Shown: positions 14,616 through 38,495 of the stretch, in pieces
How positions within the stretch are numbered: the first letter of the stretch is position 1
Layout: every line of letters begins with the position of its first letter
DNA from: a virus
IMG/VR virus record: IMGVR_UViG_3300042388_000241
Coordinates: 1-39,838 of that record
Length of the DNA: 39,838 nt
Reading direction: 5' to 3' (one strand)
Notes under the pieces: model-generated
The model's database searches: none
The model's input: only the letters and a program-made list of their open reading frames with translations
Told to the model about the DNA's origin: nothing
Position numbers and translations under genes: made by a program

Positions 14616-15037
14616 GCAGTAATTCAATCGGGTGGTTCCCCCGCGCATATGACTTTTCTGTCACGGTATCACAGTCATTGGCGGCAACCACGACTGTCCT
14701 TTACACCGTTGCAATCCCAATCTTTGCAAGCGCAGCTAATGGAGTCATTTCCAATGCTACGGCCATTGCGGGTTCAGCCGGGTATCAAGGGATACACTTC
14801 AAGGCTAGACCGACTTCATCAACCGGCAGGAGCGGCGGCATCTCGGTTGCTGGATACCCGTCAATCATGGACGACAGCCGAGCGTCCCTTAGCTCAGATA
14901 CAATTTTTGGTACCACAATTTATTTAATCAAAGCGTATATCGACAACGCTGCTGGTAATATTGTTTTTGAGTTCCGCAACTCGGCGGGAACTTCCGGAAC
15001 TCTCGCTTGCCGAATAATGGGGACGGCTTACCCATGA
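14612..15037 (+). CDS. Small beta-rich protein, possible tail or virion surface component
   Basis: The product has 141 residues and is coupled to the previous gene by an ATGA overlap and to the glycosyltransferase by another. The sequence alternates hydrophobic and Ser/Thr/Gly residues throughout and ends in a beta-like segment (NIVFEFRNSAGTSG near residue 115). It looks like a single small beta-sandwich. It shares the C-rich codon style of the preceding gene, so the two may have been acquired together. The function is unknown. Confidence 0.7.
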   Translation: MSSNSIGWFPRAYDFSVTVSQSLAATTTVLYTVAIPIFASAANGVISNATAIAGSAGYQGIHFKARPTSSTGRSGGISVAGYPSIMDDSRASLSSDTIFGTTIYLIKAYIDNAAGNIVFEFRNSAGTSGTLACRIMGTAYP

Positions 15038-16227
15038 CCAGAATACTGTCCCTTTGTGTTGAGTCTGACCGCATCCTTGGCGGCAGGGGAGAATGCGTCT
15101 TGCAGCTCAATAAGCGGTTCCGCCATGTGCATCATGTTTGTTCAGATTTAACTTGGGACCAGAATCCAACGTGGACTGTGACGGTACCTAAGAGCACGAC
15201 GGGCTATGAGTTTGCCCCCGGCTTTCCTACTAACTTGCTAGTCAACTCTGAAGCGTATCTCATCCACTGCCTTGATATTATCAAAAGGTGGAAACCTGAC
15301 GTGATTCACGCTCACGATTGGGACATGCAGATGATTGCGCGCAATCTTAGGCGCATAACCGGGATTCCGTGGGTTGCACACTTCCATCTTTTCCAACACG
15401 AAATGATGGCAGCGCAGAATAGGCCCGCGAATGACCAGACTTTAGTCCCCCCTACTTACGAGCAGATTGCACTCTTAGAGGCTGACCGAGTTATTTGCGT
15501 GTCTCGCTCAATGGCTACTTACGCCAAGATGCACATGGGAATAGAAAGGCCCATTGATGTTGTTTACAACGGCGTAGAAGCAGCAGCACAGGTTGAGTGG
15601 AAACCAGAGCGCAGCATTTTGTTCATGGGGCGCATAGACCCGCAGAAAGGCTGGGAGCATGTGGTTGAGATAGCAGAAAGGAACAGCTCGGTTAAAGTCT
15701 TTGTAGCTGGGCAGATTGCCGCGATCCCTCAAGAGGAAGCCGAGAAGACCGACGCAATGAAGCGCATACGCGCAGCCGAACTGCTTCCTAATTTTAGATA
15801 CCTTGGGCACGTGAAAAGGTCTTGGCGCGATAGCGCATACAAGAACGCAAGCTTTGTGGCCATGCCGAGCAATCAAGAGCCTTTTGGCATAGTGGCGCTC
15901 GAAGCTATGGCAAGGGGCATTCCTTTAATTACCACAAGAGTCGATGGGCTTGCTGAGTTCTGCGATGATTCCAATTCTTGGCTTTGCAGACATTCTGCTG
16001 ACTCAATTTTCGGTGCGATGTGGGAGGCGCTAAACGCCCCAGAAAAAACGCGCAAACGAATCGAGGGCGGCCTAGTCACCGCAAAGATATTTAGCTGGGA
16101 TAACTCAGCACGAGCAACGCTTAGAGTTTTAGAAGAGGCAAGTCATGGCAACGTTGGAACTGGACCAAGCGCAAGTGACGGAAGTGCGGATAGCAATGAT
16201 CAATGTTGTGGCGCTGCCCCGATCTGA
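15034..16227 (+). CDS. GT4-family glycosyltransferase
   Basis: The ATG at 15034 overlaps the upstream stop (ATGA). A TTG 27 bases earlier is not supported. The 397-residue product has the two-domain GT-B layout. HAHDWD lies at residues 92-97 in the N-terminal domain. GRIDPQKG (199-206) starts the C-terminal nucleotide-sugar domain. The retaining-enzyme E-x7-E pair is Glu282 and Glu290 in QEPFGIVALE, followed by AMARGIPLI. Such enzymes transfer a sugar from a nucleotide donor. The acceptor is not shown. Lying between surface-protein and lysis genes in the late block, it could glycosylate virion proteins or host envelope sugars. The last about 28 residues overlap the next gene and look like tail extension rather than fold. 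Confidence 0.92.
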   Translation: MTRILSLCVESDRILGGRGECVLQLNKRFRHVHHVCSDLTWDQNPTWTVTVPKSTTGYEFAPGFPTNLLVNSEAYLIHCLDIIKRWKPDVIHAHDWDMQMIARNLRRITGIPWVAHFHLFQHEMMAAQNRPANDQTLVPPTYEQIALLEADRVICVSRSMATYAKMHMGIERPIDVVYNGVEAAAQVEWKPERSILFMGRIDPQKGWEHVVEIAERNSSVKVFVAGQIAAIPQEEAEKTDAMKRIRAAELLPNFRYLGHVKRSWRDSAYKNASFVAMPSNQEPFGIVALEAMARGIPLITTRVDGLAEFCDDSNSWLCRHSADSIFGAMWEALNAPEKTRKRIEGGLVTAKIFSWDNSARATLRVLEEASHGNVGTGPSASDGSADSNDQCCGAAPI

Positions 16228-27801: not shown

Positions 27802-28205
27802 CTCTCCCCAAGGTTGGTAGCAGGGAGTTATTCGTCAAGGAGGTGACTCTGCCTCTTTCTACTTCTGCCATCTTAGGAAACGGCATTGACGCTACTACTC
27901 TTCCTGAGGGACACCTTTCTTGCCCTCAGTGCAAAGGGCACCTGTGGGAAGCGTGGGTTTACATGGACGCGCACCGGGTGGAGATGGGGTGCCGCAAGTG
28001 TAACTGGAACTGCAGAATCCTTTTTCCTATGGACGTGGTTTTCCCTAACTCTGGCAGGTGGAGTTGTAAGAAGCATCCTGACTTAGGGGTGGTGCTTATT
28101 CACAATGTGGATGTGATTAACATTGGGTGTGAGAGGTGCTACCGGGATATTACTTTTAAGCTGAGAAAGGCTCAGGGGTTAATTTTAGCGGAGGATTTAG
28201 ATTGA
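27798..28205 (+). CDS. Unknown protein with two zinc-binding pairs
   Basis: The product has 135 residues, coupled by ATGA overlap to the methyltransferase. Cys42/Cys45 with Cys65/Cys68 form one zinc-ribbon-like site. Cys90, His93 and Cys111/Cys114 form a second. Between them are beta-like aromatic segments. Paired ribbons suggest nucleic-acid or protein binding. No family is recognised. Confidence 0.75.
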   Translation: MTLPKVGSRELFVKEVTLPLSTSAILGNGIDATTLPEGHLSCPQCKGHLWEAWVYMDAHRVEMGCRKCNWNCRILFPMDVVFPNSGRWSCKKHPDLGVVLIHNVDVINIGCERCYRDITFKLRKAQGLILAEDLD

Positions 28206-28444
28206 ATAAGTTCATTGTGTACCGGCATTCGTCTGGGGAGTTTTGTTTTATTAAGAGAAGCAGCATTTCTTCTTTTAAGCCTGAGTTCATTTCTAAGTTT
28301 CAGTACCGGATTATGGTTACGGCTGATGGGAAGGAATTTATTGCGGCTGAGTCTGAGAGCATGGAAGCTGCTGAGGCTTGGATTATGGCTCAGATTAGGC
28401 TGATTGAAGAGAGTGAGGCGCCTGCTCAGGGAGCTAAGAAGTAG
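28202..28444 (+). CDS. Small unknown protein with TTG start
   Basis: The product has 80 residues. The TTG at 28202 overlaps the previous stop (TTGA) and has GGAGG (28190-28194) 7 bases upstream, which decides this start. Beta-like segments (KFIVYRHSSGEFCFIKRSSI) are followed by an Ala/Glu helix. The function is unknown. Confidence 0.7.
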   Translation: MNKFIVYRHSSGEFCFIKRSSISSFKPEFISKFQYRIMVTADGKEFIAAESESMEAAEAWIMAQIRLIEESEAPAQGAKK

Positions 28445-28798
28445 ATGGAGGAGGAGAAGTCTTTAGTCACTTTAGAGAAGGAGCAGCATGATCTCCAAGT
28501 TTCCCAAGCCAGAAGCCTTGAAGTTCTTTCGCAGGGAATCTCAGATATCGCAGCTTTCCTCACTGGCGGTGGGCTTAGTGAGCTCTTATCGGGATACGCT
28601 AAATCCAGCGCTTCAACAGCAATCCTCGGAGGTCTGGCAGCGCATGATGGACGAAACGCTCTCGATGCTAGAGTACTGGGACAGAACGCTCTCGAAGTCG
28701 TCGAGCAAGTACTCAAAGTGCACGATAAGTTCCATGAGCGACTTTCGGCGAAAGAGCCGAGGGACTCCGAAATAAAACCTGCTCCTAAAGAGGACTAA
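28445..28798 (+). CDS. Unknown helical protein containing a nested second reading frame
   Basis: The product has 117 residues and starts directly after the previous stop. A charged helical N terminus (about 1-35) is followed by a Gly/Ala/Leu-rich middle (FLTGGGLSELLSGYA, residues about 39-53) and a helical, charged C terminus. The stop overlaps the next start by one base (TAATG). A second 95-codon frame lies entirely inside it. Which frame is the main gene is uncertain, but this one maintains the operon spacing on both sides. Confidence 0.68.
   Translation: MEEEKSLVTLEKEQHDLQVSQARSLEVLSQGISDIAAFLTGGGLSELLSGYAKSSASTAILGGLAAHDGRNALDARVLGQNALEVVEQVLKVHDKFHERLSAKEPRDSEIKPAPKED
28488..28775 (+). 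CDS. Nested alternative-frame ORF, possible small protein
   Basis: A 95-residue product is encoded in the +1 frame wholly inside the 117-residue gene. AAGGAG (28478-28483) lies 4 bases before its ATG, a better signal than that of the enclosing gene. The sequence looks protein-like, with a basic N terminus (SKFPKPEALKFFRRE), a helical part containing VWQRMMDETLSMLEYWDR, and a Ser/Lys-rich C terminus. It may be a real overprinted gene or chance. No family is recognised. Confidence 0.45.
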   Translation: MISKFPKPEALKFFRRESQISQLSSLAVGLVSSYRDTLNPALQQQSSEVWQRMMDETLSMLEYWDRTLSKSSSKYSKCTISSMSDFRRKSRGTPK

Positions 28799-29499
28799 TG
28801 ACCGGTAAGATTTACATTGAGAACTACGAGGGGAAGCATAATACCCCAGAGCGTTATAAGGCGTGGGACAACCTAGGGCTTTATAAGAACCTATCCACCG
28901 TGTGGGTTACTCCTACCCGTGGCACCTGCGGGACGCGCGTTGCCTTTTCTTGGGCTGCAGTGCAGGGAGCTGCTAATACGCCGCTCTGCAGAATATGCGT
29001 GGAAGGCTTTGAGGTAGGGAAAGCCTACAATGAGGCGATTGTTCAAATACTCTCTTCTCCTCAGCTCTCTAAGTTTCAGTACCTGCTTACGGTAGAGGAG
29101 GATAATACGCCCCCTCCTGACGGGCTTATTAAGCTCTACGAGTCTATTCAGAAGTATGACGTGGTGGGCGGTCTTTACTGGATTAAGGGAGAGGCCGGAG
29201 TCCCGATGATTTGGGGAGACCCCAAGGAGCCCGGCACCTACGTTCCCCAAGTACCTGTCTTAGACACGGTGCAGGAATGTAACGGGTTAGGTATGGGCTT
29301 TTCTCTCTTTCGTATGGACATCTTTAGAAACCCCGGCTTTGAGTTTGGGCAGTGGTTCAAGACGCTGAGCGACGGCAAAAACATGATGACTCAGGACCTG
29401 TACTTCTTCAAACGGGCGCAGGAGCTAGGCTACAAGTTCGCGTGCGATACGCGCGTGAGAGTTGGACATTACGATCAAGCTTCGGGGGTTATATGGTAA
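28798..29499 (+). CDS. GT-A-type (GT2-like) glycosyltransferase
   Basis: The product has 233 residues. After strand/helix alternation, YLLTVEEDNTPPPDGL (residues about 95-110) gives an acidic EED near the sugar-nucleotide site, equivalent to the DxD of GT-A enzymes. GGLYWIKGEAGVPMIWG, a CNGLGMGFSLFR segment and a closing TQDLYFFKRAQELGYKF with a later His (VGHYD) follow the order usual in phage and bacterial GT2-like proteins. The acceptor is unknown. It lies between methyl-transfer genes, suggesting a sugar-decorating set. Confidence 0.78.
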   Translation: MTGKIYIENYEGKHNTPERYKAWDNLGLYKNLSTVWVTPTRGTCGTRVAFSWAAVQGAANTPLCRICVEGFEVGKAYNEAIVQILSSPQLSKFQYLLTVEEDNTPPPDGLIKLYESIQKYDVVGGLYWIKGEAGVPMIWGDPKEPGTYVPQVPVLDTVQECNGLGMGFSLFRMDIFRNPGFEFGQWFKTLSDGKNMMTQDLYFFKRAQELGYKFACDTRVRVGHYDQASGVIW

Positions 29500-29957
29500 A
29501 AATAGCATTCACTTACGGCACACTGCCAAAGGAAGGTTTTGAGAGCTGCGTTCCTACAGTTACCGCTCACTTAAAGGATGAGTCGGTGGACGAAATTGTA
29601 GGCGACTACGTTATTGAGAAGGTTCCTAACCTTATTCTCTTCATTGAAGAGTGCTACAGAATCCTTCGTCCGGGCGGCAAGGCTGTCTTTACTTCACCTA
29701 ACGCAGCTTCTTCTACTGCGTGGATATCTCCCCTTACGGTGCGCGGCATCTGTGAATCAACGCTTAACTTCTCCTCCAAGGAGTGGCGTGAGCAGTACAA
29801 GTTTACTGACTACACGATGCGCGCTGACTTTGATGTGACTGGTCAGTTTGTAGTTGACCAAGAGGCTCTTGCTCGTAGTGATGAAGCAAAAAACTTCTGG
29901 CTCAAGCGCTACATGAACGTAGCTCAAGGCATCATATTTACTCTTACTAAAAAGTAA
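29493..29957 (+). CDS. Partial-type methyltransferase domain lacking the SAM-binding loop
   Basis: I choose the ATG at 29493, overlapping the glycosyltransferase stop by 7 bases, with GGGGG upstream. The product has 154 residues. It shows the second half of a class I methyltransferase: VDEIVGDYVIEKVPN, EECYRILRPGGKAVFTSPN (residues about 52-70) and the downstream helices. The glycine-rich motif I (E/DxGxGxG) expected upstream is absent, and the N terminus is only about 35 residues long. It may be a degenerate or partner-dependent enzyme, or a truncated capture. Activity on its own is doubtful. Confidence 0.72.
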   Translation: MVKIAFTYGTLPKEGFESCVPTVTAHLKDESVDEIVGDYVIEKVPNLILFIEECYRILRPGGKAVFTSPNAASSTAWISPLTVRGICESTLNFSSKEWREQYKFTDYTMRADFDVTGQFVVDQEALARSDEAKNFWLKRYMNVAQGIIFTLTKK

Positions 29958-29960
29958 TTT

Positions 29961-30221
29961 GTGAAAAACAAAGTTAAGCCAGTTAACCAAGCGGCGCTCC
30001 TTGAGAAGTACATAAAGCGTCTTGTCAGTAAGCAGCCTCAGTGGATGAGGAGTCTGTTTAGTGATGAGCGCGTGGTGTTCTGCGTAGAGGATGACATGTC
30101 TTTTGTCTTAGCTTTTTCTAAAGACTTAGCTCCCACCACTAAAGAAAGAGTCAGGCAGCGCGTTGCTGCGTACATGGAGAAGTTTCCTTGCTCTATTTTG
30201 CAGGAGACGGTTGTCCAATGA
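29961..30221 (+). CDS. Small unknown protein
   Basis: The product has 86 residues from a GTG at 29961, without a strong ribosome site. The basic helical N terminus (KNKVKPVNQAALLEKYIKRL) is followed by a beta-like centre (ERVVFCVEDDMSFVLAFS) and a helix. It overlaps the next gene by 4 bases. The function is unknown. Confidence 0.68.
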   Translation: MKNKVKPVNQAALLEKYIKRLVSKQPQWMRSLFSDERVVFCVEDDMSFVLAFSKDLAPTTKERVRQRVAAYMEKFPCSILQETVVQ

Positions 30222-30472
30222 GAAAGGAAGAAGAGCTTGCTTACATTCTAAAGTGCTTTGAAGAATCTATCCTTGAGAAGTTCGGGAAAGAAATTCCCAT
30301 GGCAGAGTTCAAAGAAGCTTTTCAGCAAGAAAGGGCAAAAAGGCTTAGGGCTTTTGTTGAAAATAAGCTTGGTCATTTAAAAGACAATGACTTTATCAGG
30401 CTTGCAGATATGGCGATTAAGCCACCTGCTCTGCCGGAGGCCGCTGAGCGTGGTAGACAAAAGAAGAGCTAA
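30218..30472 (+). CDS. Small unknown helical protein upstream of terminase
   Basis: I choose the ATG at 30218, which overlaps the previous stop (ATGA); AGGAG is 11 bases upstream. The product has 84 residues, nearly all helical and charged, with a KPPALPEAAERGRQKK tail. It overlaps the small terminase gene by 23 bases. The function is unknown. Confidence 0.68.
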   Translation: MRKEEELAYILKCFEESILEKFGKEIPMAEFKEAFQQERAKRLRAFVENKLGHLKDNDFIRLADMAIKPPALPEAAERGRQKKS

Positions 30473-30947
30473 TTGGGAGAGAACTCCCGAGTGGCAGCGC
30501 ACCGTTGATAGAGTCCTTAAGTGCAAAGAAAAGGGCCTTGAGATGGATGCGATAGTGGCGCTTGTAGGAGAAGATAAGCACGCGGTTAAGCGCATTATTG
30601 AAGATGAAGAGCTGGCGGATGAGCGCGCGCGTGAGGAGTTCGATAGGAAAGTCCCCACCATACAGAATATAATTTCTTTGTCTCTAGGCGCTATTAACGA
30701 CACGCTTAAGGACATGTCTCTTGATGATGAGCTCCGCAAAAGAATGCTCGGCAAAGTCTCTGACGTGGCGCTTTTGGTGAAGGCAGTTGAGTCTTTAAAT
30801 ACGCTTCTTCGTTTGGAGCTTGGCAAATCTACGCAGAACATTGCGGTTAAGAATTCTTATCAGCAGACAAGACAAGTCTTGCAAGAGATAGCAAAGGTTG
30901 ACCCTGTTTTTGATTATCCCACTCTCCCAGAAGGGGATAAGGAATGA
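30450..30947 (+). CDS. Small terminase subunit (TerS)-like
   Basis: I choose the GTG at 30450, with GGAGG 9 bases upstream; longer starts run back through the previous gene. The product has 165 residues. An N-terminal helical part resembles a helix-turn-helix (EKGLEMDAIVALVGEDKHAV, about residues 24-43). A long coiled-coil middle and an extended C-terminal tail (KVDPVFDYPTLPEG) follow, which is the TerS plan of DNA-binding, oligomerisation and TerL-contact parts. It overlaps the large terminase start by 4 bases. The call rests on architecture and position. Confidence 0.75.
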   Translation: MVDKRRANWERTPEWQRTVDRVLKCKEKGLEMDAIVALVGEDKHAVKRIIEDEELADERAREEFDRKVPTIQNIISLSLGAINDTLKDMSLDDELRKRMLGKVSDVALLVKAVESLNTLLRLELGKSTQNIAVKNSYQQTRQVLQEIAKVDPVFDYPTLPEGDKE

Positions 30948-33283
30948 GCGACAAATACTTAGCTGCTAGAAATCACGCTGAGATAATGAGCGCTGTTTAT
31001 GACAGGATTAACAACGTTCACAAGAAGCCCCTTCACACTGGCCAGATAAAGATAGCTAAAGATTATTTTAATAGAGGCATGAAAATCATCATGTCTCAGT
31101 GGGGACGCTCTGGGGGAAAGACAGAGACGGCGCTTTATCTTGCGTGCGTAGCGTCTCTTCTAAACGATAATTTCATCACCTACATAATTACTCCTGAGCG
31201 TAAACAAGGGAAAGAAATCTACTGGGCGCCTAAGCGCCTGCAGAACTATCCTCCTCCTGAATATGTAGAGGCGGACAAAGACTCAGAGCTTCGTTTAACC
31301 TTTAAAAACGGCTCTTTTATATGCATTGATGGATGTGAGAACTACAATGCGCATCGTGGTCTAAAGCCTAATTTAGTTATCTACGATGAGTTTCAGAACC
31401 ACAGCAAAGAGTTTCACTTAGAGGTAATGGCGCCTAATCTTCTTGCTAAACTTTCGTCTCTTGTCATTTTCGGTACTCCTCCAAAGCAAAGAAGTTCTTT
31501 CTACGTAGAGTTTCGTCAGCAGCTTCTAAAGCAGATTAAAGAAGAAGACGCGACGAGAAGCTACTACGAATTTAAGTCTGAGATTAATCCAACGCTAGAT
31601 AAGTCAGAGCTTGCAAAGATTAGAAAAGAGCTCATCGAGTCTGGCAATGAAGTTATCTGGTACCGAGAGTATGAAGGGAAGCTTTCCTTCGGTGGTGAGG
31701 ACGTGGTGTTCCCTAAATGGGATCCTGACAAGCACATGAAGGCTCACCGCGTAGTTACAAGCTACGTTGAGAACGATAGGCACAAGCTTAAATGGTTCAC
31801 TATCTGTGACCCCGGAACGTCATCCTGCTTTGGTGTGCTCTTTGCTGCGTACAGCGCAAGCACTCAGACGCTGTTTATCCTTGATGAGATTTACGAGAAG
31901 GATAGAAAGCGCACGCACACGTCTCTTATCTGGGACAGGATTAGAAAGAAGGAACAGGAGCTCTACCCCACGGGTGATGAGAAATCATGGCGCCGCGTGT
32001 ACGATGAGCAGGCTGCATGGTTCGGGCGTGAGATAGCGGCGAATTATCATATCGGCCTTACTCCTACGCAAAAGCACAGCATAAAAGAAGATGAGGGCGT
32101 AGCGCGCGCAAAGATGCTAATGGCGCAGCCCGGAGCTTTGCTTGTTTCTGATAGGTGCTATTGGCTACGCTGGGAAATCGAGTCTTACATTACAGACGCT
32201 AACGGGAACTACCCTGATAAGAATAACCATTTACTGGATTGTTTGTCGGGAGACACGTTAGTTGAGACCGTTAATGGGCCTATTGAGATAGCAAAGCTAG
32301 TGGGGAAGGTAGGCTATTTAAAAAGTAGGGACGGAAAGATTTGTAAGTTTGATTCGGTGAGGAAAACTCATACAAACGCGCCAATGGTAGAAGTCGAATT
32401 TAGTGATGGAAGGAAAGTTCGGTGTACTCCTAATCACAAGTTTTTGACTGACGCTGGAGATTGGGTAGAGGCGGCTTGCCTACGCCATGGGGTATTGATA
32501 CAGTGCGATACCTATGGAAATAAAAATAATCTCAAAACTAGAGCAAGAGTTTCTCGGGAAGAGCTATCGAAAGTATCGTGGCGAGAATTACTTCAGTCGT
32601 GGCGTGAAAAGGCTTCACAGGGTTGTTTGGGAGTATTTCAATGGGCCAATCCCCAAAGGGCTGCAGGTTCATCACATCGATGGATGTTCAACGAACAACA
32701 GCATTCAGAACCTTTGCTTGCTTACGGTCAAGCAGCACATTGGCAAGCACATGACTCCGGCGCGCAGAGCAGCAGCAAGAAAGCATATGCTAGAGACGGC
32801 AATGCCTTTAGCAAAAGCTTGGCATGGTTCAGAGGAGGGCCTTGCTTGGCATTCTCAGCATGGCAGAGAGGTGTGGGAGAAGATGCCTTTAGTGACCAAG
32901 GTTTGCGAGACTTGCAAGAAGTCTTACCAAGTAAAGAAGAGTGCTTCTCAACATTCAAGGTTCTGTCACCAGAATTGCAAGATGACTGCTCGCCGGAGGC
33001 GGCTCAGGTCATTAGGGTTAAACAGTCAGGGCAAGCCGACACGTACTGCATGAACGTGGAAGATACTCACTGCTTTTCAGTAAATGGCGGGATTATCGTA
33101 CACAACTGCCTTAGATACTTAATGCAAGCGAGTAATTGGAAAATGCTTGAGAAGGTAGAGTCTGAGCTCGTGCAGTCAGTTCATAATCAACCTGCCCAAA
33201 AAGCGCAGGTAATAGAGGTTACTGATTGGGCGGATAACATCGTTGAAGGTTCTTTGTGGGGGATTCCTGATGATTACTTTTAG
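30944..33283 (+). CDS. Large terminase subunit (TerL) precursor interrupted by an intein
   Basis: This is the packaging motor and headful nuclease. The 779-residue precursor has Walker A WGRSGGKTE (Gly54-Thr60), Walker B LVIYDEF (Asp148, Glu149), a coupling motif VIFGTPP (about 174-180), and nuclease acids Asp289 (ICDPG), Asp354 (VYDEQ) and Asp432 (HLLD). Residues 433-721 are an intein. Splicing would give a 490-residue TerL in which Asp432 joins Cys722, restoring HLLDCLRY, the third nuclease motif. The unspliced protein should therefore lack a complete nuclease site. The frame is open throughout, including the 540 bases that also encode an HNH endonuclease in the +1 frame. Confidence 0.96.
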   Translation: MSDKYLAARNHAEIMSAVYDRINNVHKKPLHTGQIKIAKDYFNRGMKIIMSQWGRSGGKTETALYLACVASLLNDNFITYIITPERKQGKEIYWAPKRLQNYPPPEYVEADKDSELRLTFKNGSFICIDGCENYNAHRGLKPNLVIYDEFQNHSKEFHLEVMAPNLLAKLSSLVIFGTPPKQRSSFYVEFRQQLLKQIKEEDATRSYYEFKSEINPTLDKSELAKIRKELIESGNEVIWYREYEGKLSFGGEDVVFPKWDPDKHMKAHRVVTSYVENDRHKLKWFTICDPGTSSCFGVLFAAYSASTQTLFILDEIYEKDRKRTHTSLIWDRIRKKEQELYPTGDEKSWRRVYDEQAAWFGREIAANYHIGLTPTQKHSIKEDEGVARAKMLMAQPGALLVSDRCYWLRWEIESYITDANGNYPDKNNHLLDCLSGDTLVETVNGPIEIAKLVGKVGYLKSRDGKICKFDSVRKTHTNAPMVEVEFSDGRKVRCTPNHKFLTDAGDWVEAACLRHGVLIQCDTYGNKNNLKTRARVSREELSKVSWRELLQSWREKASQGCLGVFQWANPQRAAGSSHRWMFNEQQHSEPLLAYGQAAHWQAHDSGAQSSSKKAYARDGNAFSKSLAWFRGGPCLAFSAWQRGVGEDAFSDQGLRDLQEVLPSKEECFSTFKVLSPELQDDCSPEAAQVIRVKQSGQADTYCMNVEDTHCFSVNGGIIVHNCLRYLMQASNWKMLEKVESELVQSVHNQPAQKAQVIEVTDWADNIVEGSLWGIPDDYF
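32240..33106 (+). mobile_element. Intein in TerL with out-of-frame endonuclease gene
   Basis: The 289-residue intein begins CLSGDTLVETVNG with Cys1 (precursor Cys433). Block B has RCTPNHKFLT with Thr63 and His66 of the intein. The end is VEDTHCFSVNGGIIVHN with penultimate His and final Asn (721), followed by Cys as the first C-extein residue (722). All residues for standard splicing are present. The N-terminal splicing part is about residues 1-89 and the C-terminal part about the last 35; together they make a normal mini-intein. The 165 residues between are Ser/Gln/Ala/Trp-rich with no endonuclease motif in this frame, because that DNA encodes HNH in the +1 frame. Confidence 0.94.
32514..33053 (+). 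CDS. HNH homing endonuclease nested in the intein (+1 frame)
   Basis: The 179-residue product is a complete stand-alone type HNH endonuclease. His35 lies in LHRVVWEYFNGPIPKG, His53/His54 and Asp56 in VHHIDG, Asn61-62 and Asn66 in NNSIQNL, and His75 later. A GLAWHSQHGREVW repeat-like linker (109-121) precedes a zinc finger with Cys131/Cys134 and Cys151/Cys155 and an Arg-rich patch (160-165). The family nicks or cuts DNA at homing sites. Its frame is closed upstream by TGA at 32496. No ribosome site precedes the ATG. It ends inside intein block F. Expression could be by internal start or by +1 frameshift after the N-terminal intein part. Confidence 0.9.
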   Translation: MEIKIISKLEQEFLGKSYRKYRGENYFSRGVKRLHRVVWEYFNGPIPKGLQVHHIDGCSTNNSIQNLCLLTVKQHIGKHMTPARRAAARKHMLETAMPLAKAWHGSEEGLAWHSQHGREVWEKMPLVTKVCETCKKSYQVKKSASQHSRFCHQNCKMTARRRRLRSLGLNSQGKPTRTA

Positions 33284-33758
33284 CTTACTGCTCCTCGCTA
33301 TCAACCTCTGGATTGTCTCTATCGTGTATAGGGCAGAGAAGGTGCTTGCGAGAGAGTTCGATAAGACCAGAAGCTGGGCGCATAACTTTGGCATGCGGTT
33401 TGTAAATGACTGCAACAACCGCATTGATGTGTTTGGTAAAAAGGCAGAGAAAGAGCTGAGAGGTAAGGCAGATAAGGTTCTTATTGACTCTGCCGTTGCC
33501 ACGAAAATGGCAGACCGCGCCTTCAACATGGCATCAAGCGCGAACCTCGGGGTAGTCGCTCTGCAGAAGGCGCTTGCCACCCCAAGACTCATCAATAGGG
33601 GGCAGGCAAAACTCAATGAACTTGCCAAAAATAGTGTTGACGAGTTATTTACTACACAGGGGGAGTACGACTGGCTTAAGCCTCTCTTAAGTGATAGCGA
33701 CCTCGACCTTCTAGAAGAAATCGAACAAAAGAAGCTTAAAGACCAGATGAAATCTTAA
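33270..33758 (+). CDS. Unknown protein with N-terminal membrane anchor
   Basis: I choose the ATG at 33270, with GGGGGA 6 bases upstream, overlapping the terminase stop by 14 bases. The product has 162 residues. Residues about 4-20 (FSLLLLAINLWIVSIVY) are a membrane segment or uncleaved signal. The rest is charged and helical. It lies between terminase and portal, an unusual place for a membrane protein. The function is unknown. Confidence 0.75.
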   Translation: MITFSLLLLAINLWIVSIVYRAEKVLAREFDKTRSWAHNFGMRFVNDCNNRIDVFGKKAEKELRGKADKVLIDSAVATKMADRAFNMASSANLGVVALQKALATPRLINRGQAKLNELAKNSVDELFTTQGEYDWLKPLLSDSDLDLLEEIEQKKLKDQMKS

Positions 33759-33767
33759 GGCACCCTA

Positions 33768-36020
33768 ATGGCTGGAATCGGACCTAACAACAGGTCGGTC
33801 TTTGACGACTTAGAATTCAGTGACAAAGAAATCAGTCCTTTCTGGGCTATAAGCGACATTTCCGACGAGAAAGAAGTAGAGAAGTGGATTGATAACGCTG
33901 TCTCCGCTTGCCAAAGTTACTATAGAGACTACTTCCAGATTCAAATGGACAACCTGCTCCTTTTTCGGGGCATTCAGTGGTTGTCGGCAGATAGAGCTTC
34001 AAACCGCATCCTTGATAGGCAGGGGTTCCCCAACATTAGAAACCCTCGGATTGTCATCAATCACCTTGCTGACTTTGTGACGCAGTGGGTGTCTCGTCTC
34101 ACTAGGTACCGTCCCGCCGTTGCTATCTATCCCGCGCGCTCTGAGCAGTTAGATGCGGATGATGCGAAGATAGCAAAGAGCGTTCTTGATTATATCTGGT
34201 ATCAAGCTCGCATCGATGAAACGCTGCAGGACTTCGTGCGCCAAATGAAGATATTTGGTGAAGCGTACATGTGGATTACGTGGAATCCCCAAAAGGGCGA
34301 CGTACATCCTGATTGGCTAGCTGCGCAGCAACAAGGGCAGAAGGTCCCCGTCCTAGATTCTCAAGGCATCCCCGTAATGAACACCAAAGGGGAGCCTATG
34401 TTCATGGACCACGCTCCTCACGTGGGAGAGGTGGATTACCAGATTGATGCGCCTTGGCATGTGTTTGATCAGCCCTGCCGCAATCGCCGCAACATCGACT
34501 GGTCCTTTAGATGGTACTTAGAAGACGTTGAGTACTTAAAAGCAAAGTACCCTGATAGAGCTGATGAGATTACGGTTGATGCGGATATCAACAACCTCTA
34601 CACGGCTTACCGGCTAGACGTTGGCCGTCTTAAGAATCAGGTAGTGGTGTATGAGTTTTATCACCGCTCCCATGAGTTCATGGAAAAGGGGCGCTACATT
34701 AAGCGCGTTAAAAACGTAATTCTAGAGAATACTGATTTGCCTTACGAGCATGGGCAAATCCCGTATATCTACATGGCTGACCAAGAAATCCCTGACCAGA
34801 TTAGAGGTCAGTCTTTCTTTCAGCAGCTCTTCCCGATTCAGCATCAGATTAACGCTACGGCGTCTCTTATCTACAAGTCCCTCGTTCTTTACGCTCATCC
34901 AAAACTAGTTATTCAAGACGGCTCCTGCGATATGCAGCAGCTTCTGAATGAGTCCACCGTGGTGCAGTACTCTGGCGGCGTAGCTCCTCAGCTTCTCACT
35001 CAGTCCCCGGTGGCGCCTGAGCTCTTTAATCACATGCGGATTCTAGAAGAGACGGCTAACAAGCTTTCTGGCGTATTCACGATGTCTCGTGGCGAGGCGC
35101 CTTCTGGAATACGCGCTGCTAAAGCGCTGCGCGTTCTTGAAGAGCAGGAAGATAAGCGCGCATACGTGACTGCCGTTAAGTACAACAACATTGGCCTTGT
35201 TGAGAATGCCAAGATGACGCTTAGCGTTGCTGGCACGTTCTATGATGATGCCGACGGGCGCCTTGCGCAGATAGTTGGGCGCGACAACGAATTTAAGATA
35301 CTGCAGTTCAAGACCGCTAACCTTTCGAAACCGTATCATGTGCGGGTAGAAAACACGACGGCGCTTTCTCTTTCTCCTGCAGCGAGAATTGATGAAATCA
35401 CAGAGCTCTCTCAAATGCAGTTCACGCCTCAGAGCCTCATGCAGCGTGAGCAGGTCATTCAGCTTCTAGACATGACTGCTTCTGACCAGTTTAAAGACAT
35501 CGTGACCCGCGCAATTAGATGCGCTCAGAGTGAGAACGACGATTTCCTTGCAGGGCGTTTTGTTAGCGCTCCTGTTGAGACGGAAGATTTCATTGCTCAC
35601 TGGAAAATACACTTACAGATGTTTCAGTCTCGTGAGTGGAAGGAGCTTGTCTCCCCTGAGAGAAAACAAGCGGCTCAGCAGCATCTGCTCATTACTGAGT
35701 ACGCAATGCACAAGAAGGCGTACGGCATCATTGGACCTGCGACGGGCGTTCCTATTGCGGTAGGCAATCCCATCTTTGCGCAGCGCTTAATGACTGAGTG
35801 CCCTGATTTCCCAATGCTCCTTGGAGCGCCGCTTCCTACTCCTGCCCCCATGGGGATGGCTCCTCAGGGCGGAGCGCCCGGAGCTCCAATGGGGCCAAGC
35901 CAAGCTTTTAATGGGTTTTTGCAAGAGGCAGGTCCCGTCGACAATCAGATGCCGCTAGAGGGCGGCGAGATGGCGGGACCTCCAGTTTTACCACCAATGC
36001 CAGAGGTTAGTCCCACATGA
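33768..36020 (+). CDS. Portal protein (P22-like)
   Basis: The product has 750 residues, matching the length range of P22-type portals. The N-terminal third contains a basic NHLADFVTQWVSRLTRYRPA segment (about residues 98-117) and an IFGEAYMWITWNP strand set, both typical of that group. The middle holds the wing and stem regions, and the last about 70 residues are Pro/Gly/Met-rich and probably disordered. It forms the ring through which terminase pumps DNA. The next gene starts by a 4-base overlap. Order terminase-portal-scaffold-capsid supports the call. Confidence 0.9.
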   Translation: MAGIGPNNRSVFDDLEFSDKEISPFWAISDISDEKEVEKWIDNAVSACQSYYRDYFQIQMDNLLLFRGIQWLSADRASNRILDRQGFPNIRNPRIVINHLADFVTQWVSRLTRYRPAVAIYPARSEQLDADDAKIAKSVLDYIWYQARIDETLQDFVRQMKIFGEAYMWITWNPQKGDVHPDWLAAQQQGQKVPVLDSQGIPVMNTKGEPMFMDHAPHVGEVDYQIDAPWHVFDQPCRNRRNIDWSFRWYLEDVEYLKAKYPDRADEITVDADINNLYTAYRLDVGRLKNQVVVYEFYHRSHEFMEKGRYIKRVKNVILENTDLPYEHGQIPYIYMADQEIPDQIRGQSFFQQLFPIQHQINATASLIYKSLVLYAHPKLVIQDGSCDMQQLLNESTVVQYSGGVAPQLLTQSPVAPELFNHMRILEETANKLSGVFTMSRGEAPSGIRAAKALRVLEEQEDKRAYVTAVKYNNIGLVENAKMTLSVAGTFYDDADGRLAQIVGRDNEFKILQFKTANLSKPYHVRVENTTALSLSPAARIDEITELSQMQFTPQSLMQREQVIQLLDMTASDQFKDIVTRAIRCAQSENDDFLAGRFVSAPVETEDFIAHWKIHLQMFQSREWKELVSPERKQAAQQHLLITEYAMHKKAYGIIGPATGVPIAVGNPIFAQRLMTECPDFPMLLGAPLPTPAPMGMAPQGGAPGAPMGPSQAFNGFLQEAGPVDNQMPLEGGEMAGPPVLPPMPEVSPT

Positions 36021-37210
36021 CAGATACGCCGGTTACCAATACAGCGCCATCTACTCCTTCCGTTCCAGAATCATCTAGTGAGCCAGTCGCTGCCCCAGTA
36101 GGGGCTAAGCCTTACGATGATGATGTTTTTGATGCCTATACTGACGATGCTCCAGAAACGGAGACTGCAGCTCCTGCCGCAGAGGAGGATGCTGAAGAGC
36201 CAGAAATAGACCCTGAGACCGAAACTAAGGTTGAGGGCGCCAAGGCTACCAAAAATGACAAAGTAGATGACGGCTTTGAGGAAGTTCCTATTAAGCGCGT
36301 GATTAATGGGAAGGACGTTCAGTTTAAGGTTAAAGACGCAATTCAGGCTTACGTAAAGCAGGAAGAGTTTAACCGGAACATGGACCGGCGCATCACGCAT
36401 ATCTCCCAAAGAGAGCAGGCGTGGGAGAAGGATCAGCAATCCTTTAAGGGCAATTTATCTAAGTTAATTCAAGTAGCTCAGGCCGGTGATTTCATCACGG
36501 CGGTAAAAGGCCTTGCCAAAATCGCAACTCACGGCACAAACTTAGATCCAACCACTTTCGAAAAGCAGTATTTTGAGCAGCTAGACAAGGTTAGGGACGT
36601 CTATACAAAGATGACCCCTGAGCAGCGCGAGGCGTATTTTACCAAGCGCTCCCTTGCTGAAGCTAGGCAGCGCGCAGCCGAACTCGAAGAAGTTCAAAAC
36701 TTCTCAGTCGAGAAGTCTCAGCTTCAAGAGAAGGTGCAAACGTTGCAGCAGCAGTACGGGGTCCCTGAAGCAGAGTTTTGGGGAAACTATCAAGTCTTGT
36801 CTAGTGAGCTTGTGAAGAGGGGTGTAGTTGGTTCAGCTGACGAAATTCAGCCTGAACATGTAGTTAACTACTCTCTAGAAGTAAGACGGCAGACGAGAGT
36901 GTTTGAAGCGGCTAAGAAGGCTGGCCTAGAGGATGATGCTAAGATTGAAGAACTTGGCAAAGTCACTGCGCTGGATCCTAGCCTGACAGTAGATGAAATA
37001 GTTCAGATAATTAAGAATGCGAACCTAGTAAGTGTTGCGCCTAACAGCGCGGTTGAGAACTTAAATAGAAAAGCTGGGAAGTCACAATCTCAGTTCAGCA
37101 AGGCCAGCTCGACCAAAAAAGACGACAAAATAAACGGGTACGATGAAGAGGACGTTGAGTTCCTTTATCGCAATCAGCCGAAAGGCTACGCCCGTAAAGC
37201 GATGCGTTAA
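36017..37210 (+). CDS. Capsid scaffolding protein
   Basis: The product has 397 residues. The N-terminal 90 residues are acidic and Pro/Ala/Glu-rich, the middle is a long helix-rich region (about 120-270), and the C terminus is basic (ending KGYARKAMR), the charge pattern of scaffolding proteins that bind capsid through a basic tail. It lies between portal and capsid, its usual place. The exact family is not assigned. It should be absent from mature particles. Confidence 0.78.
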   Translation: MTDTPVTNTAPSTPSVPESSSEPVAAPVGAKPYDDDVFDAYTDDAPETETAAPAAEEDAEEPEIDPETETKVEGAKATKNDKVDDGFEEVPIKRVINGKDVQFKVKDAIQAYVKQEEFNRNMDRRITHISQREQAWEKDQQSFKGNLSKLIQVAQAGDFITAVKGLAKIATHGTNLDPTTFEKQYFEQLDKVRDVYTKMTPEQREAYFTKRSLAEARQRAAELEEVQNFSVEKSQLQEKVQTLQQQYGVPEAEFWGNYQVLSSELVKRGVVGSADEIQPEHVVNYSLEVRRQTRVFEAAKKAGLEDDAKIEELGKVTALDPSLTVDEIVQIIKNANLVSVAPNSAVENLNRKAGKSQSQFSKASSTKKDDKINGYDEEDVEFLYRNQPKGYARKAMR

Positions 37211-37232
37211 CTTTTTTGGAGTGTAAATTCAA

Positions 37233-38495
37233 ATGGCCAATTATAACTTAACCACGGCCACTGGTGTATTTAAAACCAAATACATCAAGATGTCCCGTGA
37301 TATGTTCAACAGCGAAAACGTTGTTGTAGCAAAGATAAAGCGAAACGATGTGTTCGTGGGCGACCAAGCGCTCGTTTCTGTTCCGACGTCCTTTGGTGGT
37401 GGTCGTGGTTCGGGTGTTATTCCCCGCGCTAACGTTACTGCGTACCAGAAGATGCTCATCACCGCTAAGAAGCTCTATGCAATCATCGAGATTGATAACG
37501 AGGCTATCAAGGCATCCCAAACCGATGAAGGCGCGTTTGTTCGGCTCTCTAAAGAGCCTGTAAAGCGTGGCGTTCAGTCGTGGCAGGCTAACCTCAGCCG
37601 CATGCTCTTCAATGACTCCATTGCCGCAAATGGTAACGGACGACTTGGAATTAGCTCAAGCGCAACTGCGGTAACTAGCTCTGCTGGTGTGTACACGGTT
37701 ACTTTCGTAACTGCTGGCGCTAACCCTGTTAACTGGAAGCTTGCAAACTGGGAGGTTAAGGACTTCATTAATGCGTCCTTAATTGCCGGTACTGCAGAGT
37801 ACGAGGTTACTGGCGTTAACCCTGCAGCCTCTGCAACTACTGCAACCGTAACCCTTACTCAGGTTGCTGGTTCTGCGTTTGATTTGACTGGACGTTTGTC
37901 AGTCAACTTCTACATGCAGAATTCGAAAGACAACGATGCTACTGGGCTTCGAGGAGCGCTTCTTGCGACTTCTGGAACTCTGTACAACGTTGCGGTTGGG
38001 TATAGGTGGCAGTCTCCTAGTCAGCTGACTAACTTGAGTGCTGGTATTACTCCTGACCTTTTGAATCAGCAGGCACTGGATATCAAATATGCGTTTGGTG
38101 AAAACCATGACATGTTTGTTACTTCCTATGTGCAGTACAGAAAGCTTCTGAATCAGCTCGAAGACCAGAAGCGCTACATGATTGTTGAGTCACGAAATGC
38201 AGGTCCTAAAGGGAAGTTCTCCTTTCAGGCGCTTGAGTTCATGGCCGACACTGGTCCTATTCCGGTCATCGCGGAAAGGTTCGTGGAAGACGACACTCTC
38301 TATTCATTGAATAGCGATTTCATCGAATTCCATGCACGTCCTGATGGCGGATGGGTAGAAGATCCTACTGCGGGTGGTAGCATTTTTAGGCTTTCGCCTA
38401 CGAATGATACTTGGCAGGCAAGGTATGCGGTGTATGGGGAGTTCGCCATTATGCCGTCTGCTCACGGAATCATGACGGGACTTACCACTTCTTAA
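37233..38495 (+). CDS. Major capsid protein (HK97-fold expected)
   Basis: The product has 420 residues, and GGAG precedes the ATG. The first part (about residues 1-130) has mixed helices and strands with IIEIDNEAIKAS and a Lys/Arg-rich helix. The middle (about 135-230) is Thr/Ser/Ala/Val-rich like an inserted surface domain. The C-terminal part has helical and beta segments (VTSYVQYRKLLNQLEDQKRY, FIEFHARPDGGW). Position directly after the scaffold gene and length support the capsid call. An HK97 fold is expected for this group but not proven here. Confidence 0.85.
   Translation: MANYNLTTATGVFKTKYIKMSRDMFNSENVVVAKIKRNDVFVGDQALVSVPTSFGGGRGSGVIPRANVTAYQKMLITAKKLYAIIEIDNEAIKASQTDEGAFVRLSKEPVKRGVQSWQANLSRMLFNDSIAANGNGRLGISSSATAVTSSAGVYTVTFVTAGANPVNWKLANWEVKDFINASLIAGTAEYEVTGVNPAASATTATVTLTQVAGSAFDLTGRLSVNFYMQNSKDNDATGLRGALLATSGTLYNVAVGYRWQSPSQLTNLSAGITPDLLNQQALDIKYAFGENHDMFVTSYVQYRKLLNQLEDQKRYMIVESRNAGPKGKFSFQALEFMADTGPIPVIAERFVEDDTLYSLNSDFIEFHARPDGGWVEDPTAGGSIFRLSPTNDTWQARYAVYGEFAIMPSAHGIMTGLTTS

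Follow-up and report, generated by a model that had tools for sequence, protein, structure and literature searches.

The arrangement known as 'fractured genes', reportedly described by Dassa in 2009, consists of split inteins with an endonuclease gene lying between the two halves. It resembles the locus described here in joining an intein to a separately translated endonuclease gene between its halves, and it occurs as a sister form in 17 relatives of this locus. It differs in that our intein, like those of 77 other loci, is continuous and is overlapped by the nuclease gene. I-HmuI, an intron-encoded enzyme, shares the HNH core and is not nested in an intein. HNH inteins of the in-frame kind were reported by Dalgaard (1997), as cited in PMC5050341. 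These also combine an intein with an HNH nuclease, but the nuclease forms one domain of the intein protein, whereas our locus has it as an overlapping gene of its own, in another frame. The ShiLan domain, the closest report located, is an out-of-frame HNH insert in an actinobacteriophage methylase; its authors saw no features of an intein or an intron (PMC11855218). As in the family described here, the insertion leaves the host frame open and has an HNH zinc-finger gene in an alternative frame, and the distribution is disjunct and homing-like (PMC11855218). However, the authors detected no splicing domain and take the insert to remain in the host protein (PMC11855218), whereas a complete intein surrounds the HNH gene in our family. 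The hosts also differ, being a methylase in ShiLan and mainly the terminase, in bacterial and archaeal records, in our family.

We describe an intein in the terminase large subunit gene (TerL) of a metagenomic virus record of 39,838 bases, the whole of which is referred to as the window. We consider it probable that this intein represents a third architecture beside the in-frame and split forms, in which a continuous intein houses an independent homing-endonuclease gene in a different frame. The architecture would occur in both alternative frames and in bacterial and archaeal records, and would interconvert with split and free-standing forms. No earlier description of an intein with an out-of-frame nested endonuclease was found. 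Literature on out-of-frame, overlapping or overprinted intein endonucleases was limited to the ShiLan work and a genome announcement citing such an HNH gene, with bioRxiv outside the scope of the search. Priority is not certain, as a preprint of which only the title was available (10.1101/2025.01.02.630785) mentions non-canonical intein architecture in that title.

The terminase intein and its nested HNH gene

Features of the locus are given in Table 1. The splicing residues C1, T63 and H66 (T63xxH66), H288-N289 and C+1 are all present (alignment A2), as the earlier note had claimed. The intein has the Hint fold, as judged from the PF14890 match and from a Foldseek match of its structure model to the Ssp DnaB mini-intein (probability 1.00), and solved mini-inteins match the model. 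Two further claims of the note were confirmed, namely that the intein frame lacks an endonuclease motif and that a complete HNH and zinc-finger endonuclease is encoded in the +1 frame. With no endonuclease model found by Pfam in the intein frame, the criterion for a classical in-frame endonuclease is not met. Neither is that for a split intein or fractured gene, as the intein lies in one 779-codon ORF, nor that for a ShiLan-type insertion, as a splicing domain accompanies the out-of-frame HNH gene. A self-splicing intron was also rejected, there being no Rfam intron match at E ≤ 1 in positions 30500-34000.

Table 1. Coordinates of features at the terminase locus of the window
Feature	Position	Strand	Description
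TerL ORF with intein	30944-33283	+	779 codons, uninterrupted
TerL N-extein	30944..32239	+	432 aa; PHROG terminase large subunit, 1.5e-16; relatives L164-L171 49-68% identical
Intein	32240..33106	+	289 codons, continuous in TerL frame; Intein_splicing (PF14890), 4e-11; alignment A2
Intein N-terminal splicing half	32240..32509	+	Residues 1-90; AlphaFold pLDDT 82-96
Intein residues 91-250, overlapped by HNH gene	32510..32989	+	Open, unconserved, predicted disordered; AlphaFold pLDDT 32-52
Intein C-terminal splicing half	32990..33106	+	Residues 251-289; AlphaFold pLDDT 84-95; first part overlapped by HNH 3' end
TerL C-extein and stop	33107..33283	+	58 aa, starts CLRYLMQ; aligns with uninterrupted TerL of L164
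HNH-frame TGA stop	32496..32498	+	Just 5' of HNH start; HNH frame opens at 32499
Nested HNH endonuclease gene	32514..33053	+	179 codons, in the +1 frame with respect to TerL and the intein; Pfam HNH_3 (PF13392), 6e-18; PHROG HNH endonuclease, 1e-26; pLDDT 93
HNH core	32610..32738	+	Residues 33-75; conserved H53-H54, N61-N62, H75; Pfam, alignments A1 and A3
C4 zinc-finger motif of HNH protein	32904..32978	+	C131, C134, C151, C155; invariant in A1 and A3

The closest TerL (L164, 68% identical) has an empty insertion point at the same position, reading KNNHLVD-CLKYLMQ where the window reads KNNHLLD-intein-CLRYLMQ. Because L164 aligns without interruption across this point, the size of the element can be given as 867 bp. 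The insertion site is empty in L165-L170 as well, and the criterion for an intein at a conserved host site is thus met. By arithmetic, removal of the 289-aa intein would leave a TerL of 490 aa, splicing itself being inferred.

In alignment A3 of the HNH protein, H54, N61, N62 and the four cysteines are invariant and H53 and H75 near-invariant; every conserved HNH and zinc-finger residue is intact in the window (alignments A1 and A3). The AlphaFold structure model, for which 93 is the mean pLDDT, was built from A3, an alignment without public-record rows. The only clear solved relative by sequence is I-HmuI (PDB 1u3e; E 5e-6), which is also the best structural match by fold, if a weak one, and is well aligned in the HNH part only. 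Because such an endonuclease is invisible in the intein frame, nested-HNH inteins are easily annotated as lacking an endonuclease, and surveys of mobile inteins therefore probably undercount active ones.

Megablast of positions 28000-38000 against a phage collection returned no matches. Elsewhere in the window, positions 15007-16227 hold a phage-encoded, GT4-like glycosyltransferase (Pfam 4e-24). One relative of the window TerL (L171, 898-2844) has a different mini-intein at the Walker A motif, without an endonuclease, and its nuclease-motif site is empty.

Recurrence, arrangements and mobility

A search with the HNH protein recovered 14 viral contigs, nearly all with an out-of-frame HNH gene inside an open-frame TerL intein, and a profile search added 80 viral loci and 59 loci from prokaryote genomes. 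Locus classes were assigned by profiles for the two intein halves and HNH, and distinct HNH sequences were counted. Nested loci numbered 77, mostly in TerL, with the HNH gene in the +2 frame in 58 and in the +1 frame in 19 (the window included). A TerL intein on the complete plasmid of the haloarchaeal Halobacterium sp. GSL-19 brings the nested total to 78. The arrangement was also found in the cultured phages TJE1 (Tetrasphaera) and Highwayman (Acinetobacter) and in the phage record LS06. With no fewer than 77 further distinct sequences from viruses, bacteria and archaea showing it, and with both alternative frames in use, the nested arrangement is a real and widespread form of mobile intein. 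These data support the main proposal of the earlier note, an intein with its endonuclease in another frame. The nested counts rest on HNH-based searches and are not a share of all phage inteins.

Split inteins surround the HNH gene in 17 relatives; an 18th, L116, was first classed with them and then dropped for assembly Ns. The C-intein ORF of these split loci starts at its own start codon near the HNH end, mostly behind a strong Shine-Dalgarno-like site. HNH loci without a flanking intein amount to 36, and in-frame HNH cases to three (L131, L141 and L151), which gave only weak scores for the HNH family of the window; the remaining loci are contig fragments. One locus (L018) has the same kind of intein, intact and with its frame kept, while its HNH gene is deleted to the last 48 residues. 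No stretch of the intein N-half alignment was conserved enough to scan with.

Identity of the intein N-half and of the HNH protein was correlated across 449 pairs of loci (rho 0.73), against 0.41 for TerL and HNH, although the pairs are not independent. For the pairs L039/L054, L046/L047 and L035/L044, dS of the host TerL is 2-3, and dS of the intein is about that of the HNH gene, at 0.4-0.7. By these comparisons, intein and HNH gene change in step and by less than the genes that host them, the pattern to be expected if the two move as a unit. To explain the HNH tree, many branches of which are weakly supported, about 10-12 switches between the nested +1, nested +2, split and free-standing states are needed, and the arrangements thus appear to interconvert. 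Nested, split and free-standing beside TerL may be three interchangeable states of one HNH family. If true, this interconversion suggests how free-standing nuclease genes join mini-inteins and how split inteins arise. With one family free-standing, nested and split at the same host gene, it becomes testable how inteins gain or exchange endonucleases and become split.

Several further loci are of note in their own right. A nested out-of-frame HNH gene in a phage portal-protein intein of Asaia astilbis (L129, 2215-4515) takes the architecture beyond terminases. Loci L119 (1-4293) and L128 (247-4452) have a second insertion in addition to the nested-HNH intein, with a LAGLIDADG in-frame Pfam match. 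In L005 (1315-4740), the nested-HNH intein is accompanied by another intein-like insertion close to the TerL N-terminus, as seen in translation only. The actinobacterial genes in L131 (2208-6086) and L141 (716-3514), with an in-frame HNH match, are a possible in-frame contrast case; that of L131 is a family A DNA polymerase which also carries a LAGLIDADG intein. In the cultured Vibrio phage 1.245.O (L174, 661-4389), TerL, an HNH match and a 'hedgehog/hint domain protein' are annotated in series. This annotation, the frames of which are unverified, suggests that an HNH gene separates the two halves of a split TerL intein.

Openness and selection in the overlapping frames

Over the HNH gene of the window, the intein frame contains no stops, versus 12.4 expected when the HNH protein is held fixed and synonymous codons are redrawn (exact P about 10^-6.7), and the third frame contains 13. 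The earlier note had put the odds of such openness at about 2 in 10,000, a value that is correct for equal base frequencies but too generous once HNH coding is taken into account. Its inference of selection for continuity of the intein frame is supported beyond the window, as 71 non-redundant nested loci have no intein-frame stops versus a mean of 6.6 expected under the same redrawing (exact summed log10 P of -271), with a mean of 17 stops in the third frame, which is open in none. Because the nested class requires both intein halves in one ORF, it selects for openness, and the split loci must be weighed. Even with that selection, 77 open versus 17 broken loci is far from chance. Relatives with a broken intein frame, which the earlier note would have taken as a refutation, do exist, but they are the split inteins, in which the C-half has its own start codon. 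A natural control is provided by 11 free-standing HNH genes adjoining an uninterrupted TerL (L027, L065, L075, L080, L085, Poludnitsa, BP10, EauM-23, PAE1, Shemara and Fructilactobacillus), in which each alternative frame has 2-37 stops and none is open.

Between related pairs, dN of the HNH gene is far below dS, whereas dN of the overlapped intein frame is mostly at or above dS, with dS saturated for many pairs. Among about 350 HNH-synonymous changes, nine were also intein-synonymous versus 12.8 expected, indicating no preference. By these substitution rates the HNH gene is under purifying selection in relatives, and selection keeps the overlapped intein frame open without preserving its amino acids. 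A dN/dS comparison had been proposed in the earlier note to see whether both frames are supported; constraint was found on the HNH gene, while the overlapped intein frame is held to openness alone. Taken with the low pLDDT of the middle of the intein, these rates make the HNH gene look functional and the overlapped part of the intein a tolerated linker kept only stop-free. The family thus offers many natural examples of long gene overlaps where one frame is maintained for its protein and the other for openness only.

Proposed mechanism and HNH expression

We are confident, short of certainty, that the window holds a mobile intein served by a homing endonuclease from a distinct gene that overlaps it; splicing, internal initiation, HNH translation, cleavage and homing are all inferred. 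What supports this reading is comparative sequence evidence: the two coding frames, splicing and HNH residues that are all in place, an insertion site left empty in relatives and, again in relatives, selection on HNH, openness-only selection on the overlapped intein frame and co-inheritance of intein and HNH gene. Ribosomes would read TerL through into a 779-aa precursor, the N- and C-halves of the intein folding together and leaving the middle ~160 residues as a disordered loop, and splicing would yield the 490-aa TerL. Separate initiation at the internal ATG (32514) would produce the HNH zinc-finger endonuclease of 179 aa. If it acts as known HNH homing enzymes do, this protein would cleave TerL alleles that lack the intein, close to the HLLD/CLRY codons, and in the course of repair the whole 867-bp intein with its nested gene would be copied into them. 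The evidence bearing on such cleavage is indirect only and lies in the co-mobility of HNH gene and intein.

The main rival accepts the intein as real and takes the HNH protein for a packaging or accessory nuclease of the terminase rather than a homing enzyme. Such a role is compatible with the free-standing members that adjoin TerL in Poludnitsa, EauM-23, PAE1 and Shemara and with the mention of terminase-aiding HNH proteins in PMC11855218. We nevertheless find it unlikely, given that in L164-L170 neither the site itself nor the stretch directly downstream of TerL has an HNH gene, that I-HmuI, the one clear relative among solved structures, is a homing enzyme, that the HNH gene travels with the intein and that one nested HNH gene resides in a portal-protein intein.

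The signals for HNH expression bear on two other rivals. A Shine-Dalgarno-like site precedes the HNH start in many +2 and split loci (relatives with such a site include L004, L032, L089, L104, L113 and L119). The HNH start of the window has none, and its +1 clade, in which the HNH ATG is embedded in intein codons, is likewise negative. There is also no promoter match near the HNH start of the window and no terminator signal there. In the absence of both a Shine-Dalgarno-like site and a promoter match, how translation of the window HNH gene starts is unresolved. The HNH gene could accordingly be imagined as a decaying passenger that this genome no longer expresses, the open alternative frame being a remnant, and L018 demonstrates that HNH decay occurs. 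We give this idea little weight, as the conserved HNH and zinc-finger residues of the window are all intact and purifying selection on HNH in relatives is strong.

Programmed frameshifting in place of internal initiation would express a TerL-intein-HNH fusion, and the HNH frame is indeed open for 40-60 nt before the HNH homology in many +2 loci. However, in all 19 +1 loci, the window included, the HNH frame is closed by a stop 0-18 nt ahead of the HNH start, which argues against frameshifting by leaving almost no room for a shift site. The Shine-Dalgarno-like site before the HNH start is, moreover, a strong one in many +2 and split loci, and we regard frameshifting as very improbable. Sequencing or assembly frameshifts, which the earlier note had named as a possible refutation, or a chance open frame might be suspected in a metagenomic virus record, but can practically be dismissed with the arrangement recurring in dozens of records (77 distinct loci; cultured phages and one complete plasmid also carry it) and with chance openness at about 10^-6.7 for the window alone.

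A separate observation concerns L007, L009, L014, L015 and L018, which have TGATACAAT in common, 9 nt 5' of the HNH ATG. This sequence looks like an extended -10 element positioned to give an almost leaderless mRNA, and it may simply reflect conserved intein codons.
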